Position numbers and translations under genes: made by a program. This document shows positions 47,968-55,579 of a stretch of 64,000 bases of DNA, piece by piece. The stretch's first letter is position 1. Every line of letters starts with the position of its first letter. The notes under the pieces were generated by a model. That model saw nothing but the letters and a program-made list of their open reading frames with translations. It made no database searches and was not told the DNA's origin. The DNA comes from Phycisphaeraceae bacterium. GTDB lineage: Bacteria; Planctomycetota; Phycisphaerae; Phycisphaerales; UBA1924. The stretch spans positions 248,001 to 312,000 of the forward strand of contig JAHBXB010000001.1 in assembly GCA_019636655.1 (NCBI GenBank), in the 5' to 3' direction.

Positions 47968-48289
47968 CGCGGATCTCCTGGCGCGGGCGGCCGGGAGGTC
48001 CGGCGGCACCAAAATCGAGCACGTTCGGAGCCGAGGCGGGCGAATCGAGGGCCGCGGCGGCGGACCAGTCTAGTCGGTCCGTCGAGGCTGAATCCAGTAT
48101 GTAGTGGAGGCTGAGACCGCCGGGCAGCGTCTCGGGACGGGTTATCTGACGTGCAGGTCAAACGTCGGCTCGGGGCCATGCGAACAATACCTGATTCCTC
48201 CCGGCCATTGGCAGCCGCTCGCGCTGCGCATGAATCGCGCGATCCGGGCGAACCTGGCACGGGAACTGCACGAATGTCCCGGCGAGGCC
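47968..48289. other. 322-base gap between divergent small genes
   Basis: No gene is supported here. It separates the 100-residue gene (minus) from the TM-tailed protein (plus) and must hold both promoters. In-frame plus-strand codons at 48104 and 48230 could extend the downstream gene into it. No strong -35/-10 pair or terminator is seen. Confidence 0.4.
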
Positions 48290-48811
48290 ATGACACACGT
48301 GCAGAGCCGCCCCATGTTGCGTTTGGTCACCGATGCCGCCGCGCCCGCGGCACGTCTGTTGCATTCGGGCATCCCTGCGGCTCCGCCGAGCCCACAGGCG
48401 TCGTCAGCCGCTGCGAGCTCGGCCGCCCGGATCCGCTCTGAGAACCGGGCTGCGGCATGGCTGTCCCCGCTGGACGCCCGCTGGATCGTCGCGCTCCGCG
48501 CCTCGCAGTACCTGGAGGGGGGCCGGGCGGCCATCCTGACGCCTGAGCACCGGCAGCGGGTCGTCCGTCTCGCCACCTCGCTGGGTCTGCGGCCCTTTGA
48601 CGCCCACCTGGTCATCGCCATCATCCAGGATTCGGCCCGTACGGGCGACGGACCGCTTGCCCCAGCGGCGGTCGATCGGCTGACACTGGTCCGCGGCGCA
48701 ACCGACAACGTTGTTCGAGCGCCGATGCGGGCCTGGGTGCCTGCGATGATCGCGGCCGTCGGCGCGATCGGGCTTTTTTCACTGCTTGTCAACTGGGTTG
48801 CCGGCCGCTGA
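48290..48811 (+). CDS. Hypothetical protein with C-terminal membrane anchor
   Basis: A 173-residue product starting MTHVQSRPMLRLVTDAAAP; an ATG at 48230 is an alternative. The first 60 residues are Ala/Ser/Pro-rich. A compact helical domain follows (LDARWIVALRASQYLEGGRA, then LTPEHRQRVVRLATSLGLRPFDAHLVIAIIQDSART). The C-terminus is one membrane helix (VPAMIAAVGAIGLFSLLVNWVAG), giving a tail-anchored layout. The opposite strand is also open over nearly the same span, but its product looks like antisense shadow. It precedes murC by 81 bases. Confidence 0.65.
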   Translation: MTHVQSRPMLRLVTDAAAPAARLLHSGIPAAPPSPQASSAAASSAARIRSENRAAAWLSPLDARWIVALRASQYLEGGRAAILTPEHRQRVVRLATSLGLRPFDAHLVIAIIQDSARTGDGPLAPAAVDRLTLVRGATDNVVRAPMRAWVPAMIAAVGAIGLFSLLVNWVAGR

Positions 48812-48892
48812 TTGGCGACGTGGGAGGTCATTTCTCCCATCGGCCGCCTCTCTCACGCCGCCGCGGTCCCCCGGCCGATAGCCTTGGGCGAT

Positions 48893-50446
48893 ATGGCCCT
48901 ACCCCGAACTGAGTTGCCACCCGGCGCCCCGGGCGCCTCCGCGTCGCCCTCGCGGGATCCGGCGCCCTTCTCCGCCGCCGCGCCCGGCGGTGCGCTCACG
49001 ACTCCGCCCGTCGATTTTCGGGGCAAGCACGCGTACCTCATCGGTATCGGCGGCTGCGGCATGTGCGGCCTGGCGAGGATGCTCCGCTCCCGCGGCGCCA
49101 ACATCTCCGGGTCGGACATGTACCCTTCCGAGTTCACGCAGGCGCTGATCGCGGACGGGGTCGACGTCGGATTCGACCAGTCCAGGCAGTGGCTCCCCGA
49201 TGACGCCGACCTCGTCATCGCTTCCGCGGCGATCAAGCCGGACCATCCCCAACTGCTGGAGGCCGAACGGCGCGGCATCCCGCACCTGTCGTACGCCGAG
49301 GCCCTCGGGCGCTGCATGACCGGCATGTCCGGTATTGCGGTTGCCGGGACCCACGGCAAGTCGACGACGACGGCCATGCTCGGCTGCGCCCTTCGCGACG
49401 CGGGGCTGGACCCGACCGTCATCGTTGGGGCAACGTGCCCGCAACTGGACAAGGCCGGCGGCTTCCGCCTGGGAGCGGGGGAGATCCCGACCGGTCCTCT
49501 CGCGGGCCGGCCGGGCCTGCTCGTGGTCGAGGCGTGCGAGTTCAACCGCTCGTTTCACAACTATCACCCGGTCATCGCGGCGATTACCGCTATCGAGGCG
49601 GACCACCTCGATATTTACGGCTCGCTGGATGCCGTGGTGGAGGCGTTCCGCCAGTTCGCCCGCCACCTCCCGCACGCGCGGCACGGGGGCGTGCTGCTCA
49701 TTGCCGACAAGGGGGCGCACCGGCGCGAGATCGCCGCGGGGTTGGAGTGCGATGTTCAGACGATCGGCTACTCCCCATCCGCCGACTGGTCGGTGCGGTG
49801 GGATCCGATCTCGCGGCAGACCGCTCTTATTCGACGCGACTATGGGCTCGTGGCCGCGTGGATCACGGCCCTTCCGGGCGAGCACAACGCGATGAACGCC
49901 GCGACGGCGTGCGCGCTGGCCATCCTCGCCGGGGGAGACCCCGACGCCGTGGCCCGCTCGCTCGGCTCGTTCCGGGGCCTGCGGCGTCGCTGCGAGTTCC
50001 TCGGCGAGCGGGTGGGCGTCCGCGTGTATGACGACTACGGCCACCATCCCACCGAGGTGGACGCGACCCTGAGGGCTCTTCGCGAGTTCGAGCGCCCCGA
50101 GCAGCGATCGGGCCGCCTGATCTGCGTCTTCCAGCCCCATCAGCACTCACGCACCCGGCACCTCCTCGACGAGTTCGCCACGGCCTTCGACGCGGCCGAC
50201 ATCGTGATCGTTCCACACATCTACTTCGTCCGTGATTCGATCGCGGAGAAGCAGAAGGTGTCGGCGACGGACCTCGTGGACCGCCTCCGCACTCGAGGCA
50301 AGCACGCCATGCACCTGTACCCGTTCGAGGCGATCATCGAGCAGCTGGAGGTCATCTGCCGTCCCGGCGACCTCCTGGTGGTCATGGGGGCCGGGCCGGT
50401 CGACAATGTCGCACGCGGCTACCTCACCGCCGGATCCAACGCCTAG
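48893..50446 (+). CDS. murC: UDP-N-acetylmuramate--L-alanine ligase
   Basis: MurC adds L-alanine to UDP-MurNAc, the first peptide step of peptidoglycan synthesis, in the cytosol. The start MALPRTELPPGAPG gives 517 residues, with a disordered Pro/Ala-rich N-terminal extension of about 40 residues before YLIGIGGCGMCGLARML. The ATP loop AGTHGKSTTTAMLG, ITAIEADHLDIYG, the GEHNAMNAATA segment and YDDYGHHPTEVDATLRAL are all present. It opens a cluster with murB, ddl and an FtsQ-like gene, each within 51 bases. Confidence 0.96.
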   Translation: MALPRTELPPGAPGASASPSRDPAPFSAAAPGGALTTPPVDFRGKHAYLIGIGGCGMCGLARMLRSRGANISGSDMYPSEFTQALIADGVDVGFDQSRQWLPDDADLVIASAAIKPDHPQLLEAERRGIPHLSYAEALGRCMTGMSGIAVAGTHGKSTTTAMLGCALRDAGLDPTVIVGATCPQLDKAGGFRLGAGEIPTGPLAGRPGLLVVEACEFNRSFHNYHPVIAAITAIEADHLDIYGSLDAVVEAFRQFARHLPHARHGGVLLIADKGAHRREIAAGLECDVQTIGYSPSADWSVRWDPISRQTALIRRDYGLVAAWITALPGEHNAMNAATACALAILAGGDPDAVARSLGSFRGLRRRCEFLGERVGVRVYDDYGHHPTEVDATLRALREFERPEQRSGRLICVFQPHQHSRTRHLLDEFATAFDAADIVIVPHIYFVRDSIAEKQKVSATDLVDRLRTRGKHAMHLYPFEAIIEQLEVICRPGDLLVVMGAGPVDNVARGYLTAGSNA

Positions 50447-50497
50447 CCGCGCGGCGCTCGGAGGCGCCGCCCGCACCCGACTGGCCGCAACGGAGTC

Positions 50498-51415
50498 ATG
50501 GTCTCGATGCCCCTCATCGCCGAGCTCCAGGCTCAACCCAACGCCCCGATCCCGACGTGGTTCGGAGTCGGAGGCGGCGCCGATCACCTTGCCCGACCGG
50601 TGAACACCGGTGAGCTCCGCCGCTGCCTCGAGGCCGACCGCTCCCTTCGCATCCTGGGCGACGGCGCCAACCTCCTGGTCGCCGACGAGGGCGTCGGCAA
50701 CCTGGTCGTGTCGCTGGCGCAGGGCGAGTTTGCGGCCTCGTCGATCGATCCCGCGGCGGGCCGGATTACCGCGGGGGCGGGCGTGAACCTCCCCAGGCTC
50801 ATTCTTGAGGCCGCCAAGGCGGGGCTGGCCGGGCTTGAGGGCCTTGGCGGGATCCCTGCCACCATCGGCGGCGCGATCGTCATGAACGCGGGCGGCACGT
50901 TCGCGCAGATCTGCGATGTCGTCGCGCGAGTGCACGGCCTGGACCGCTCCGGCTCGCCCGTGACGCTCGAGCGCGGCGACATCGATTTCTCCTACCGCCA
51001 CTCCGGGTTGAATGACCTGGTCGTCACGTCGGTCGACCTCAGGCTCAAGCGAGACGATCCCTCGCGTGTCCGTGCCCGCCTCAAGGAGGTCATGGCCTAC
51101 AAGAAGAAGTCGCAGCCGCTGGGCGATCGCTCCGCGGGCTGCGTCTTCAAGAACCCCACGCTCAGGATCGAGATTCCGAACATCGGTGTCCCGGGCGCCC
51201 GAGTGTCCGCCGGCATGCTGCTGGACAAGGCCGGTTGCAAGGGGATGACGGTCGGCGGCGCGGCGGTCTCGTCCCACCACGCCAACTTTTTCACAGCCCG
51301 CAAGGGCTGCACGGCCGGCGACATGATCCTGCTCATTGAGCAGGCGAGGGCCAGGGTCGCCGATCGCTTCGGGGTCACGCTCGATACCGAGGTAGTCATC
51401 TGGAAGCGAGCCTGA
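50498..51415 (+). CDS. murB: UDP-N-acetylmuramate dehydrogenase
   Basis: MurB reduces the enolpyruvyl group to make UDP-MurNAc, using FAD and NADPH. At 305 residues it has TWFGVGGGADHLARP, the FAD loop LRILGDGANLLVADEG, GLEGLGGIPATIGGAIVMNAGG and FSYRHSGL. The shorter C-terminal region with SAGMLLDKAGCKG is that of type II MurB. In SAGCVFKNP a Cys stands where most MurB proteins have the proton-donating Ser. A Cys could still protonate the intermediate, but this is not proven here. It sits between murC and ddl. Confidence 0.94.
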   Translation: MVSMPLIAELQAQPNAPIPTWFGVGGGADHLARPVNTGELRRCLEADRSLRILGDGANLLVADEGVGNLVVSLAQGEFAASSIDPAAGRITAGAGVNLPRLILEAAKAGLAGLEGLGGIPATIGGAIVMNAGGTFAQICDVVARVHGLDRSGSPVTLERGDIDFSYRHSGLNDLVVTSVDLRLKRDDPSRVRARLKEVMAYKKKSQPLGDRSAGCVFKNPTLRIEIPNIGVPGARVSAGMLLDKAGCKGMTVGGAAVSSHHANFFTARKGCTAGDMILLIEQARARVADRFGVTLDTEVVIWKRA

Positions 51416-51425
51416 GGCTGAACGC

Positions 51426-52436
51426 ATGACCACACCACCCTCGAATGATCCCGTCTCGGTCCTGGTTCTGGGCGGCGGCCCTGATGCCGAGCGGGAGGTG
51501 TCGATCAAGTCCGCGACCGCCATCGCCGAGGCGTTGCGTGCCTCAGGCGCCTACACCGTCCGGCTCGAGATCATCTCCACGCTCTCCCTGGACCAGCTCC
51601 GCGCCCTGCCGGCGGACGTCGTCTTCCCGTACCTCCACGGTCCGTGGGGCGAGGGGGGGCCGCTGCAGGACATACTCGAACTCGACGGACGCCCGTACGT
51701 GGGCTCGGGCCCGCGCTCGGCGCGGGAGGCGATGGACAAGATCGCGACGAAGGCCGCCGCGCTCGCCCTGGGAATCGATACGCCCCCGGTGTGGATCCTC
51801 AATCCGAATGATCCTGTGTGTCCCACGGCGCTCCCGGTCGTCATCAAGCCCGTCCATGAGGGATCGACGATCGGCCTGCACGTGTGCACCAGCCGCGCGC
51901 ACTACGCGGCGGCCCTCGCGGCGGTGAGGGCGGAGCGGGACTCCGGAGTCATTCGGACGTACATGATCGAACCGAAGGTTGGCGGCCAGGCCCGGGCGCG
52001 TGAACTCACGGTCGGACTGCTTGACCGTCAGGCCCTTCCGGTCATCGAGATCTGCCCCCAGGACGGCCTCTACGACTACGCCGCCAAGTACACCCGCGAC
52101 GACACGCGGTACATCCTCGATCCGGATGTTCCCGAATCGGTGCTGAAGAAGATCTCGAAGGCCACTTCGCGGCTGGCCAGGGCCATGGGATTGCGCCACA
52201 TCGCCCGCGCCGACTTCATGCTCGACTCGTCCAACACGCCGTGGTTCCTCGAGATCAACACCACGCCGGGGTTTACGGATCACTCGCTGGTTCCCAAGGC
52301 CGCGCGTCACGCGGGCATCGCCATGCCCGAGTTGTGTGCGCGCATGGTCGAACTCGCGCTGCGAGATCACGCCGATTCCGCACATTCCCCGACCCCGGCC
52401 CACGCCGTTCCCGGGGCTTCCGTTCCAGCCCCGTAG
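51426..52436 (+). CDS. ddl: D-alanine--D-alanine ligase
   Basis: Ddl joins two D-alanines with ATP for the peptidoglycan stem. The 336-residue protein has the ATP-grasp layout: VLGGGPDAEREVSIKSA, FPYLHGPWGEGGPLQDILEL, PVVIKPVHEGSTIGLHVC, YDYAAKYTRDDTRY and FLEINTTPGFTDHSLVPKAA, where Glu and Asn bind magnesium. It begins 10 bases after the murB stop, which suggests coupled expression. The C-terminus is a short Pro/Ala-rich tail. Confidence 0.96.
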   Translation: MTTPPSNDPVSVLVLGGGPDAEREVSIKSATAIAEALRASGAYTVRLEIISTLSLDQLRALPADVVFPYLHGPWGEGGPLQDILELDGRPYVGSGPRSAREAMDKIATKAAALALGIDTPPVWILNPNDPVCPTALPVVIKPVHEGSTIGLHVCTSRAHYAAALAAVRAERDSGVIRTYMIEPKVGGQARARELTVGLLDRQALPVIEICPQDGLYDYAAKYTRDDTRYILDPDVPESVLKKISKATSRLARAMGLRHIARADFMLDSSNTPWFLEINTTPGFTDHSLVPKAARHAGIAMPELCARMVELALRDHADSAHSPTPAHAVPGASVPAP

Positions 52437-52471
52437 ACCATCTGGCCGATCGCACGGACAGCGAGACCACC

Positions 52472-53431
52472 ATGGCCCGAAAGAAGAAGTCGCGTACCCA
52501 AGCATCCACGTCGCCGGGACCCCTATCCAGGTGGTTCTCTTCTCTATTCTCCGACTGGTCGCGGACTACCCGCTCGTTTACGACGATTGCCACGGCGGTC
52601 ATCGTCGTTGGCCTGATTGCGGGGCTGGCCGTGGGCCGGTCGCCGCTCAAGGCCAAGGCCGAGGAGATCCGCAGCGATCGCCTGACAGTCGTCTTCAACT
52701 GGCCGCCAGCGATTAGCGCCGATCCGCGAGCGGCATCGTCGAGCACGACGCCCAACACATGGGTCGATTCGGAGACCCGCACGCGGCTGGAGCAACTGGC
52801 GTTGAGTTGCCTCACGGCCAATACATTCGATGGAGAATCGCTCCAGCGGGCGCAGTCCGCTCTGCAGGCGACCGGCTGGTTCGCCAACGAGGTCCGCGTC
52901 CGGCGCGACAAGGCCGGCGTCGTTCGGGTGGATGGTCAGTGGCGGGTGCCCTTCGCGTGCGTCCGCACAAACCGCGGCGACCAGTGGGTCACCTTCCGCG
53001 GCGAGGCCCTCGACAAGATCTTCGCCCCTGATACGTCTGGTCTGTGCGTCGTCCACGGGGTGCGGACCCCTCCGCCGAGCCTCGGATCAGTATGGGAGGG
53101 GGGCGAGGTTCAGCCGTCGCTCGCGCTCCTGCAGTACATCCGTCCCTGCCCCGGGTTCGAACAGGTGGTCGGCATCGATGCCTCGGACTACCTCTCCAAG
53201 AACAGGCGGCTTCTCTCGATCCTGACGCGTCACAACACCCGCATTCTCTGGGGCGGGCCGGTCGACCAGCCTCTGCCGGGGGAGATGCCGTCGGGAGTCA
53301 AGTTGAAGAATCTCTCGGACATCGTCATGCGAACCGGCCGCGTCGATGCGGGCCGTCCGTTTATTGACATCCGAGGCCGGGATATCCTGGTGGAAACCGG
53401 CGTGGAGCCGGCGCACACTCAAGGGCGGTGA
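52472..53431 (+). CDS. FtsQ-like cell-division protein (by position and layout)
   Basis: The 319-residue protein has a basic cytosolic start (MARKKKSRTQ), one membrane helix (FTTIATAVIVVGLIAGLAVG) and an exported domain. This domain contains a POTRA-like stretch (LQRAQSALQATGWFANEVRVR, RVDGQWRVPFACVRTNRGD) and ends FIDIRGRDILVETGV. FtsQ/DivIB bridges division proteins at the septum and usually follows ddl, as it does here, 35 bases on. Sequence similarity alone would be weak, so the call rests partly on gene order. Its stop overlaps the next start as GTGA. Confidence 0.65.
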   Translation: MARKKKSRTQASTSPGPLSRWFSSLFSDWSRTTRSFTTIATAVIVVGLIAGLAVGRSPLKAKAEEIRSDRLTVVFNWPPAISADPRAASSSTTPNTWVDSETRTRLEQLALSCLTANTFDGESLQRAQSALQATGWFANEVRVRRDKAGVVRVDGQWRVPFACVRTNRGDQWVTFRGEALDKIFAPDTSGLCVVHGVRTPPPSLGSVWEGGEVQPSLALLQYIRPCPGFEQVVGIDASDYLSKNRRLLSILTRHNTRILWGGPVDQPLPGEMPSGVKLKNLSDIVMRTGRVDAGRPFIDIRGRDILVETGVEPAHTQGR

Positions 53432-54282
53432 ACCTGCAGCCCGGCGATCCCGACGGTATTCCAGGATCGGACCACTCCTCGTTCTCGCCGGGTCCCGAGG
53501 GTGATTCCCCCTTCCTCGGTGGTCCGGGGGACTCCCGCGATCACGACCGAGAAGCCCCCAGCGAGGTCCCCGCTGCCGATCCGTGGGCCCACCGGCGCGG
53601 CGAGCCACGTGTCTTCGCGCTCCTGTGGTCGACCTACGTCCTGCTTGCGGTTGCCGGGGGCATCCTCTGGCTGATGCAACTTCCGCCCGAAACGCCGGGG
53701 GCGTACAGCCCGGCGGCCCGCACGCTGCTCGTGGTGCTCGCGGCTGGGCTGTCGATTCTCTGGCCGATGACCCGGCTCAGCCAGCTTCCGCCCGATGAGC
53801 CGAGTGTGCACGCCGCGCTCGCCGACACCCTTTTGATGCTGATCCCGATCCAGATGGTCATCTGGCCGCTCTGGAGTCTGGCTGGCTGGCCGATTGCCGT
53901 GGTGGCGGCGGTCGCGAGCCTCTTTCTTGCGTGGGGACTCTTGATCGGAGCTGTGCAGGCCATTGCATTTGCCCGCGGGGAGGCGGGCGCCGCCTCCCGC
54001 GCCGTGTGGATGGGAACCTGCATCGTGCTCGTGGTCGCGGCTCCGTGCTGCGCCACGCTCCTTACATGGGCGGTGGGGGCGTCGCCCAAGTGGCTGGAGA
54101 TGGGGTCTCCGTTCACCTCCATCTTCGCCCTCAGCGGGTCGGGGTACTCGGGCCCGACCACTGCGGTGACGGGGATCCAGTGGTCGATCATCGCCGGAAC
54201 GGGCGTGGCCGCGGTGCTCGCGTGGACGCTCGCGGCGGCCCGCGCGCAGGCTGGTTCCCGGAGGGTTTCTGGCCTACATTGA
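53428..54282 (+). CDS. Polytopic membrane protein, unknown function
   Basis: The 284-residue protein starts at a GTG overlapping the upstream stop. A 60-residue polar, Gly/Pro/Asp-rich N-terminus is followed by about six membrane segments: YVLLAVAGGILWLM, TLLVVLAAGLSILWPM, LLMLIPIQMVIWPLW, IAVVAAVASLFLAWGLLIG, WMGTCIVLVVAAPCCATLL and WSIIAGTGVAAVLAWTLA. No family is recognised. It takes the place where ftsA and ftsZ would follow ftsQ in many bacteria. The tight overlap suggests it functions with the FtsQ-like protein, but that is inference. Confidence 0.75.
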   Translation: MNLQPGDPDGIPGSDHSSFSPGPEGDSPFLGGPGDSRDHDREAPSEVPAADPWAHRRGEPRVFALLWSTYVLLAVAGGILWLMQLPPETPGAYSPAARTLLVVLAAGLSILWPMTRLSQLPPDEPSVHAALADTLLMLIPIQMVIWPLWSLAGWPIAVVAAVASLFLAWGLLIGAVQAIAFARGEAGAASRAVWMGTCIVLVVAAPCCATLLTWAVGASPKWLEMGSPFTSIFALSGSGYSGPTTAVTGIQWSIIAGTGVAAVLAWTLAAARAQAGSRRVSGLH

Positions 54283-54385
54283 GCCATTGGGGGATACCTC
54301 GGGACCCGTCCTTTCTGCGAGAGGCCCTATGACCGGCCACCCGGCCGGGGCACAGCGTTTTGATCTTTGATCCAAGGAGACGCCC

Positions 54386-54853
54386 ATGGAGATGATTACC
54401 CGCGACGAGAAGCAGCAGATCGAGGCCCGCCTCGAATCCCTGCTTGCCAACCGCCCGGTCATCTCTGAGCGCATCGCCGAGGCGAGAGCCATGGGGGACC
54501 TGAAGGAGAACGCCGACTACCACGCCGCCCGCGAGGAGCAGGGGATGCAGGAGGCGGAGATCCGCCGCATTCAGGAGCGGCTCGCCCGTGCCAGTGTCGT
54601 CGACGAGGCCGCCCACAAGAACACCGGGGTGGTCTTCCTGGGCGCCACGGTGAAGATGCGGGAGGTGGGGTCGGACGAGGTCGAGGTGTTCCGGCTCGTC
54701 GGCGAGGCGTCCGGCTCGGTCTCGGCGGAGATCGTCGAGGTGACGGCCAGCAGCCCCATGGGCGAGGCCCTCATGAAGGCCCGCGTCGGCGAGGTCATCT
54801 CCGTCCGCGGCCCACGCGGGACCACGAAGTTCGAGATCCTCGAACTGGTCTGA
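54386..54853 (+). CDS. greA: Transcription elongation factor GreA
   Basis: GreA rescues backtracked RNA polymerase by stimulating transcript cleavage. The 155-residue length and layout are standard: an N-terminal coiled coil with the tip motif GDLKENADYHAAREEQG, where the acidic residues act in the polymerase channel, then a globular C-terminal domain (VVFLGATVKMREVGS, ASSPMGEALMKARVGEVISV). AAGGAGA precedes the ATG. A short GC palindrome lies in its 103-base leader. Confidence 0.96.
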   Translation: MEMITRDEKQQIEARLESLLANRPVISERIAEARAMGDLKENADYHAAREEQGMQEAEIRRIQERLARASVVDEAAHKNTGVVFLGATVKMREVGSDEVEVFRLVGEASGSVSAEIVEVTASSPMGEALMKARVGEVISVRGPRGTTKFEILELV

Positions 54854-54973
54854 CGCCGGGCCACGGCTCGATTTGCCAACCCGTCCGGTCGATAAACACC
54901 CTACGGAGCAGCCCGGGCTCTCGGTAGACTCCGCCGACGGTCGGTACGCAACGCGGTTGAGAGGTGGACCGGG

Positions 54974-55560
54974 ATGCACAGTGGCGGCCAGCAGATCACA
55001 GAACCCCAAGCGGCGCCCGCGGCTTCGGCGGCCGCGCCTGTGACCCCGGCGCCCGCGAAAGGGCCGGAGGGGTGGCGGATTCGTACGCGGGCGGATGCGT
55101 CGGGCGCGGTTGCCCTGCTCGATGCGATGGCCCGCAGGGGGAAGCTGGCCGGGTTCGAGGCGGGCGGGGGCGATGGCGTGTTTCGGGTGCGGGACTTTGG
55201 TCACCCGTTCGAGTCCGAACTGGTAGCGCGGGCCGAGAGGGTCGACGGGTGGACCGAGTTCACGCTCCGCCGCAGGCTGAGGCCCGCCATGCCGTGGGTG
55301 TTTGGTCTGATGCTGGTGGCGACCATCTGGCCGGGGGTGTGGCTGACGGACTCGATGCTGGCGACCTATTTCGGCTGGTACCGCGGCATCGAGACGTGGT
55401 GGTGGTACCTGCCGCTGACGGTCCCGGCGGCGCCGTGGGCGATGTGGTCGGCGATCCGGAAGTCGTGTGCTGCGGGGGACAACGAGGCGGCGATCGTGGT
55501 GGGGAAGATCGAAGCGGCGCTGGGGAGTAGCGGCGAGAGGACCAGGGAACCCGAGCCGGG

Positions 55561-55579
<19 letters not shown>
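54974..55579 (+). CDS. Hypothetical protein with two membrane segments
   Basis: A 201-residue protein. The first 35 residues are Ala/Pro-rich; a small domain follows (WRIRTRADASGAVALLDAMA, VFRVRDFGHPFESELVARAE). Then come two membrane stretches (MPWVFGLMLVATIWPGVWL and WWWYLPLTVPAAPWAMWSAI) and a polar end. No family is recognised. Its last 19 bases overlap the end of livF on the other strand. Confidence 0.65.

Follow-up and report, generated by a model that had tools for sequence, protein, structure and literature searches.

A six-helix membrane-protein gene beside ftsQ in Phycisphaerales without detectable FtsZ, and its possible place in a split division and cell wall cluster

What is the place of a membrane-protein gene at the end of a division and cell wall (dcw) gene cluster, directly behind ftsQ, in a bacterium in which no FtsZ is detected? 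The question is raised by a 64,000-nucleotide stretch of DNA, here called the window, from a Phycisphaeraceae bacterium of the order Phycisphaerales (Planctomycetota; GenBank assembly GCA_019636655.1, contig JAHBXB010000001.1, positions 248,001 to 312,000). The gene, for which we use the name memb (53428-54282, + strand), encodes a protein of 284 amino acids (aa) with six transmembrane (TM) helices and belongs to no named family. We put at roughly 0.5 the probability that memb is a lineage-specific member of the dcw cluster whose product serves in the membrane as an accessory or partner to the peptidoglycan-synthesis machinery that contains FtsQ, the cluster being a split dcw fragment without FtsZ.

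Linkage of memb to ftsQ and greA in Phycisphaerales

A profile search of 393 genomes of the phylum found memb in 71, comprising 69 of the 77 Phycisphaerales genomes and two weak matches outside the order; in 60 of the 69 it lies directly 3' of ftsQ on the same strand. A single-sequence search recovered memb from 51 of 61 genomes and FtsQ from 57 of them. The linkage that the first-pass annotation proposed to check in related genomes is thus recurrent, but not universal. Among 41 loci from metagenome-assembled genomes, most with record titles naming Phycisphaerales or Phycisphaerae, the gene directly upstream of memb is ftsQ in 34 and the gene directly downstream is greA in 35; 29 loci have both.

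Several observations weigh against the role we propose. Nine of the 69 genomes have memb in a place other than directly behind ftsQ (0.8-1.8 kb downstream in two, elsewhere in seven), and five of these nine detached copies adjoin greA (G029, G012, G058, G344, and G332), so memb need not be tied to ftsQ. The profile did not detect memb in 8 of the 77 Phycisphaerales genomes, all of which have ftsQ. The gene also evolves fast, its homologues being 20-43% identical to the copy in the window. Finally, passages of one report describe deletion of ftsQ as tolerated in the budding planctomycete Planctopirus limnophila (PMC10632474), which weakens claims of essentiality. In two of the eight memb-negative genomes (G050 and G272), an open reading frame (ORF) of 199-204 aa with 5-6 TM helices stands in memb's place, and the G050 ORF gave a weak score (E 0.003) with a memb profile; memb rows of >340 aa had been left out of the local profile used there.

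Such exceptions bear most directly on the strongest rival explanation, which we consider somewhat unlikely: that memb, coding for a membrane protein specific to the order and functionally unrelated, rides in the operon as a passenger that shared transcription keeps between ftsQ and greA. It is favored by the copies that have parted from ftsQ and stay with greA, which include three from a second genome draw (G016, G002, and G018) besides the five listed above, by the near-equal conservation of the memb-greA and ftsQ-memb pairs in the metagenomic loci, and by the genomes in which memb is undetected. Against it, the other four of the nine detached copies (G039, G043, G041, and G045) are not beside greA, nor are two from the second draw (G051 and G055), and all six directly keep neither neighbor. 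A further argument comes from outside the order, as described below.

Separately, four small genomes of one family (f2; L162 to L165) without detected memb carry a phospholipase-D/cardiolipin-synthase-like gene directly after ftsQ (PLDc_2 E 3e-41 for the L162 gene).

A homologue of memb at the same place in a second order

In a second order of the class, represented by family f13, FtsQ was found in 22 of 26 genomes, and 20 ftsQ loci were examined. Directly after ftsQ, 15 of the 20 have an ORF that spans 182-276 aa and has four or more predicted TM helices, and only these loci entered the f13 alignment. The f13 profile matched the memb profile in register over 185-186 columns with a probability of 91.8% (P 7e-7); once L173_7 had been dropped as a duplicate of L254, leaving 15 rows, the probability was 89.8% (P 2e-6). 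Controls scored far lower: 0.3% for the reversed profile, 0.2% for another FtsQ-downstream family, 1.7% for SEDS versus memb, and at most 5.8% in 60 local column shuffles. An earlier comparison with three sequences was weak (8%), against ∼90% with 15-16 sequences. Since the order-level memb profile misses these f13 homologues, calling the family restricted to the order underestimates its spread.

The surroundings of the second-order homologue differ on the downstream side. mraZ comes next, within the 1.5-kb flank, in 12 of the 20 loci, which places the homologue inside a fuller dcw cluster, and tblastn found no greA in the 20 loci with their 1.5-kb flanks. The order ftsW-murG-murC-murB-ddl-ftsQ-memb-like-mraZ occurs in two longer regions, and in one of these rsmH and a gene for a LysM protein come next. 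The link to ftsQ thus extends over two orders, and that to greA was seen only in Phycisphaerales; adjacency to ftsQ is therefore the broader and probably the older link. This arrangement argues against a passenger kept in place between ftsQ and greA and is consistent with our preferred reading of memb as a dcw-cluster member.

Proteins with 6-8 TM helices also lie directly after ftsQ in other families of the class (f10, f11, f14, and f15). They resemble memb in helix number and position; however, they lack profile similarity to it (probability 0.1-0.2%) and were rejected as homologues. They are TM7S3/TM198-like, with a subthreshold match to PF13886 (E 0.0055, one member scanned). The loci with an unrelated polytopic protein directly after ftsQ are L168, L169, L172, L174, L188, L190, L191, and L193; a second polytopic gene comes next in L172, L188, L190, and L191.

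Predicted topology and fold of the memb protein

The protein matches nothing in Pfam or NCBIfam. Our alignment of the family (A1) holds 33 memb rows, three of 36 candidates (L019, L055, and L056) having been dropped because their frames were too long or too short. Searches of PDB sequences with profile A1 and with a profile A2 yielded no usable match (best E 0.69 and 0.053, respectively). An AlphaFold2 model built from the 33 sequences (mean predicted local distance difference test score [pLDDT] 84; predicted template modeling score 0.79) has six TM helices, at residues 60-83, 94-117, 126-145, 156-182, 188-216, and 249-281, and two short helices at 221-236, between TM5 and TM6.

Over the 33 rows, the N-terminal tail carries a mean of 7.0 lysines plus arginines, compared with 0.24, 0.45, and 2.2 in the predicted periplasmic loops TM1-TM2, TM3-TM4, and TM5-TM6; this charge pattern in the sequences is consistent with an N-in topology. 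Conservation peaks at W53-R61, before TM1 (motif WAHRRGEPR), at W112-Q119, at the end of TM2 (WPMxRLSQ), and at D133 and R191, all predicted to lie at or near the cytoplasmic side; further peaks at W146-P147, W154, and S227-P228 are predicted to lie on the outer side.

Comparison of the model with known structures by Foldseek gave no match at E ≤ 1e-3, the best being CcmB at E 0.12. With VIA-align, all 50 matches listed were ATP-binding cassette (ABC) exporters, including PmtC (Z 13.5, root mean square deviation 4.2, 205 residues aligned), NosY (Z 13.3), ABCG2 (Z 13.3), and CcmB (Z 11.0), although the program itself cautions that helical bundles can reach a Z near 13. The model has the six TM helices of the ABC-2 fold, and the fold alone shows no function. 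Together with the conservation toward the cytoplasm, the modeled fold makes an enzyme seem less likely than a scaffold or a permease-like orphan bundle.

Could memb then be an orphan half of an ABC-2-type permease, its ATPase being encoded elsewhere, and transport a lipid-linked precursor of the envelope? We think this improbable. The structural matches speak for it, as do the two short helices before TM6, because ABC-2 domains have two such helices between TM5 and TM6. The coupling helix of ABC-2 permeases is expected in the TM2-TM3 loop; in the memb model this loop is short (118-125) and contains no helix. The Foldseek match and the reservation about Z scores likewise count against a permease. 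At the sequence level, no ABC-2 Pfam model was among the matches of the 33 memb proteins at E ≤ 1, where only weak matches to other families appeared, and we rejected membership of memb in the ABC-2 permeases after its profile was compared with one of 12 ABC-2 permeases (PF12679) from relatives (probability 0.7%, versus 0.8% for the reversed control). No partner ABC ATPase was found among the eight genes scanned (48104-55579). As sequence profiles lend no support, we speak of an ABC-2-like fold, not of an ABC-2 permease.

FtsQ in the absence of detectable FtsZ

Is the gene upstream of memb a true ftsQ? Its 319-aa product (ATG at 52472; 52472-53431, + strand) has no Pfam match of its own, including FtsQ_DivIB_C and POTRA_1. 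Among 42 aligned proteins of its family, eight matched FtsQ_DivIB_C (best E 1.8e-4) and one matched POTRA_1 weakly (E 0.05). Its AlphaFold2 model (pLDDT 89) has an N-terminal helix, a POTRA domain, and a C-terminal beta domain; the long helix at 17-66 runs over a hydrophobic stretch and is the single N-terminal membrane helix. All nine PDB matches found by Foldseek at E ≤ 1e-3 were FtsQ, and VIA-align superposed the model on 6h9o_C with Z 11.5 and root mean square deviation 3.9 over 180 residues. By its predicted fold, the fourth cluster gene is a true FtsQ. Like the FtsQ/DivIB proteins of the FtsQLB divisome complex, it has all three parts and occupies the dcw position after murC-murB-ddl; it differs in being too diverged for Pfam and in occurring without FtsZ and without detectable FtsB. 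The profile search detected FtsQ in 305 of the 393 phylum genomes, including all 77 Phycisphaerales.

FtsZ/tubulin (PF00091) gave no match in the genome of the window (3.66 Mb, 98% complete), in a search whose control was positive in 13 of 14 genomes, and none in any of the 77 Phycisphaerales genomes, in keeping with the statement of the first-pass annotation that planctomycetes lack FtsZ. Only 5 of the 393 phylum genomes matched, four of them from a single genus in another family of the class, the fifth from elsewhere. FtsB/DivIC (PF04977) had no match in the window's genome and none over the cutoff in 21 genomes, with a control positive in only 9 of 14. Two PF14450 (FtsA) matches in the window's genome were rejected as FtsA, being MreB and PilM by Pfam.

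The four genomes of that one genus belong to a phylum described as without FtsZ. Each encodes a diverged member of the tubulin/FtsZ family, ∼440 aa long and containing a GGGTGGGS stretch (genes at L180:5741-7060, L181:5954-7300, and L183:5841-7184, all on the − strand; PF00091 E 1.4e-9; NCBIfam ftsZ 49.9 bits against a cutoff of 295). Another genome, G422, encodes a 1152-aa protein kinase fused to Tubulin_2 (L182:2907-6365, − strand; PF13809 E 1.8e-44).

A split rather than a stripped cluster

That ftsA, ftsZ, and ftsW are missing from the cluster, as first described, holds for the cluster; as a loss of ftsW it does not, and we rejected that idea because ftsW lies with murG on contig C2 of the same genome. 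This SEDS gene scores best as ftsW, at 302.8 bits, below the NCBIfam model cutoff of 337.5. ftsI is on contig C3 with rsmH and a LysM-protein gene, and a second SEDS-transpeptidase pair (C1:236943-239261) lies ∼9-11 kb before the window, so that the genome retains two SEDS proteins and two transpeptidases. With ftsW, murG, ftsI, and rsmH all present elsewhere, the cluster is split, not stripped, and ftsW is missing from it through relocation.

The LysM protein has a single TM helix, and its gene (L158:10018-10923, − strand) lies between rsmH and ftsI, where ftsL is expected. A LysM gene also follows rsmH in L186 and L173.

Retention of FtsQ makes it very unlikely that the cluster is a decayed dcw remnant with a vestigial or repurposed FtsQ: the viable ftsQ deletion in P. 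limnophila and the FtsB undetected here and, in passages of one study, reported lost in the class (PMC12283558) speak for decay, but FtsQ occurs throughout the order and widely in the phylum with a recognizable fold, and division in Phycisphaerae is described in passages of another source as similar to binary fission, unlike that of P. limnophila (PMC6952346).

Organization of the locus

All genes of the cluster are on the + strand. murC (48893-50446; Mur_ligase E 6e-19, Mur_ligase_M E 4e-16, and Mur_ligase_C E 8e-22) is followed by murB (50498-51415; MurB_C E 2e-28 and FAD_binding_4), ddl (51426-52436; Dala_Dala_lig_C E 1e-38), ftsQ, memb, and greA (54386-54853; GreA_GreB_N E 1e-20 and GreA_GreB E 4e-16), all Pfam domains of murC, murB, ddl, and greA being above the cutoff. 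The first-pass annotation had given this order, with a six-helix membrane gene between the FtsQ-like gene and greA, and both order and coordinates hold. So does the overlap it reported: the start of memb shares GTGA (53428-53431) with the ftsQ stop, as read from the sequence. In 20 of 32 ftsQ-memb pairs the ftsQ stop shares bases in this way with a start-like trinucleotide, a weak count because the reading frame was unchecked and most of the possible bases preceding TGA would qualify. A Shine-Dalgarno-like AAGGAG (54374-54379) precedes greA. A scan for promoters and terminators gave signals no commoner than in shuffled sequence.

Proposed role of memb and its significance

We favor the following view. 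The cluster would be one piece of a dcw cluster that has been split, in a Phycisphaerales member that lacks FtsZ. The product of memb would be polytopic and reside in the inner membrane; its translation is probably coupled to that of FtsQ, and it is most likely an accessory or partner of the FtsQ-containing peptidoglycan machinery on the FtsW/FtsI side, with an envelope or septal function. Both coupled expression and a physical partnership with FtsQ would belong to this view. The first-pass suggestion that the protein may belong to an FtsZ-independent division or envelope apparatus is supported in part; a role of memb in division is plausible but unproven. A more specific version, in which memb is a lineage-specific divisome subunit embedded in the membrane, takes over the binding of FtsQ from lost partners (FtsB and the FtsA/FtsZ link), and helps to place or activate FtsW/FtsI in the binary fission of Phycisphaerae without FtsZ, seems to us doubtful.

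That Phycisphaerae have FtsQ without FtsZ is already published: they keep a near-complete dcw set without ftsZ, ftsB, and ftsA (PMC12283558). The window agrees with this pattern and differs in the membrane protein beside ftsQ, which the passages of that study we could draw on do not mention. In passages of two papers, division in Phycisphaerae is described as resembling binary fission (PMC6952346, PMC5147048); a divisome-like gene set is thus retained there in the absence of its organizer. Among open-license PMC papers, we found none that names an ftsQ-linked membrane protein in its title or the start of its abstract and none that combines "Phycisphaerales" with "ftsQ". The new element is memb, with its linkage to ftsQ and its homologue in a second order.

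The end of the cluster is thus the point where a longer dcw cluster is broken, not a sign that ftsW and its neighbors are lost. For planctomycete division without FtsZ, memb, tied to ftsQ across two orders, offers a specific and testable entry point, and it is a reasonable candidate for a part of the cell wall or division machinery in these FtsZ-less bacteria.

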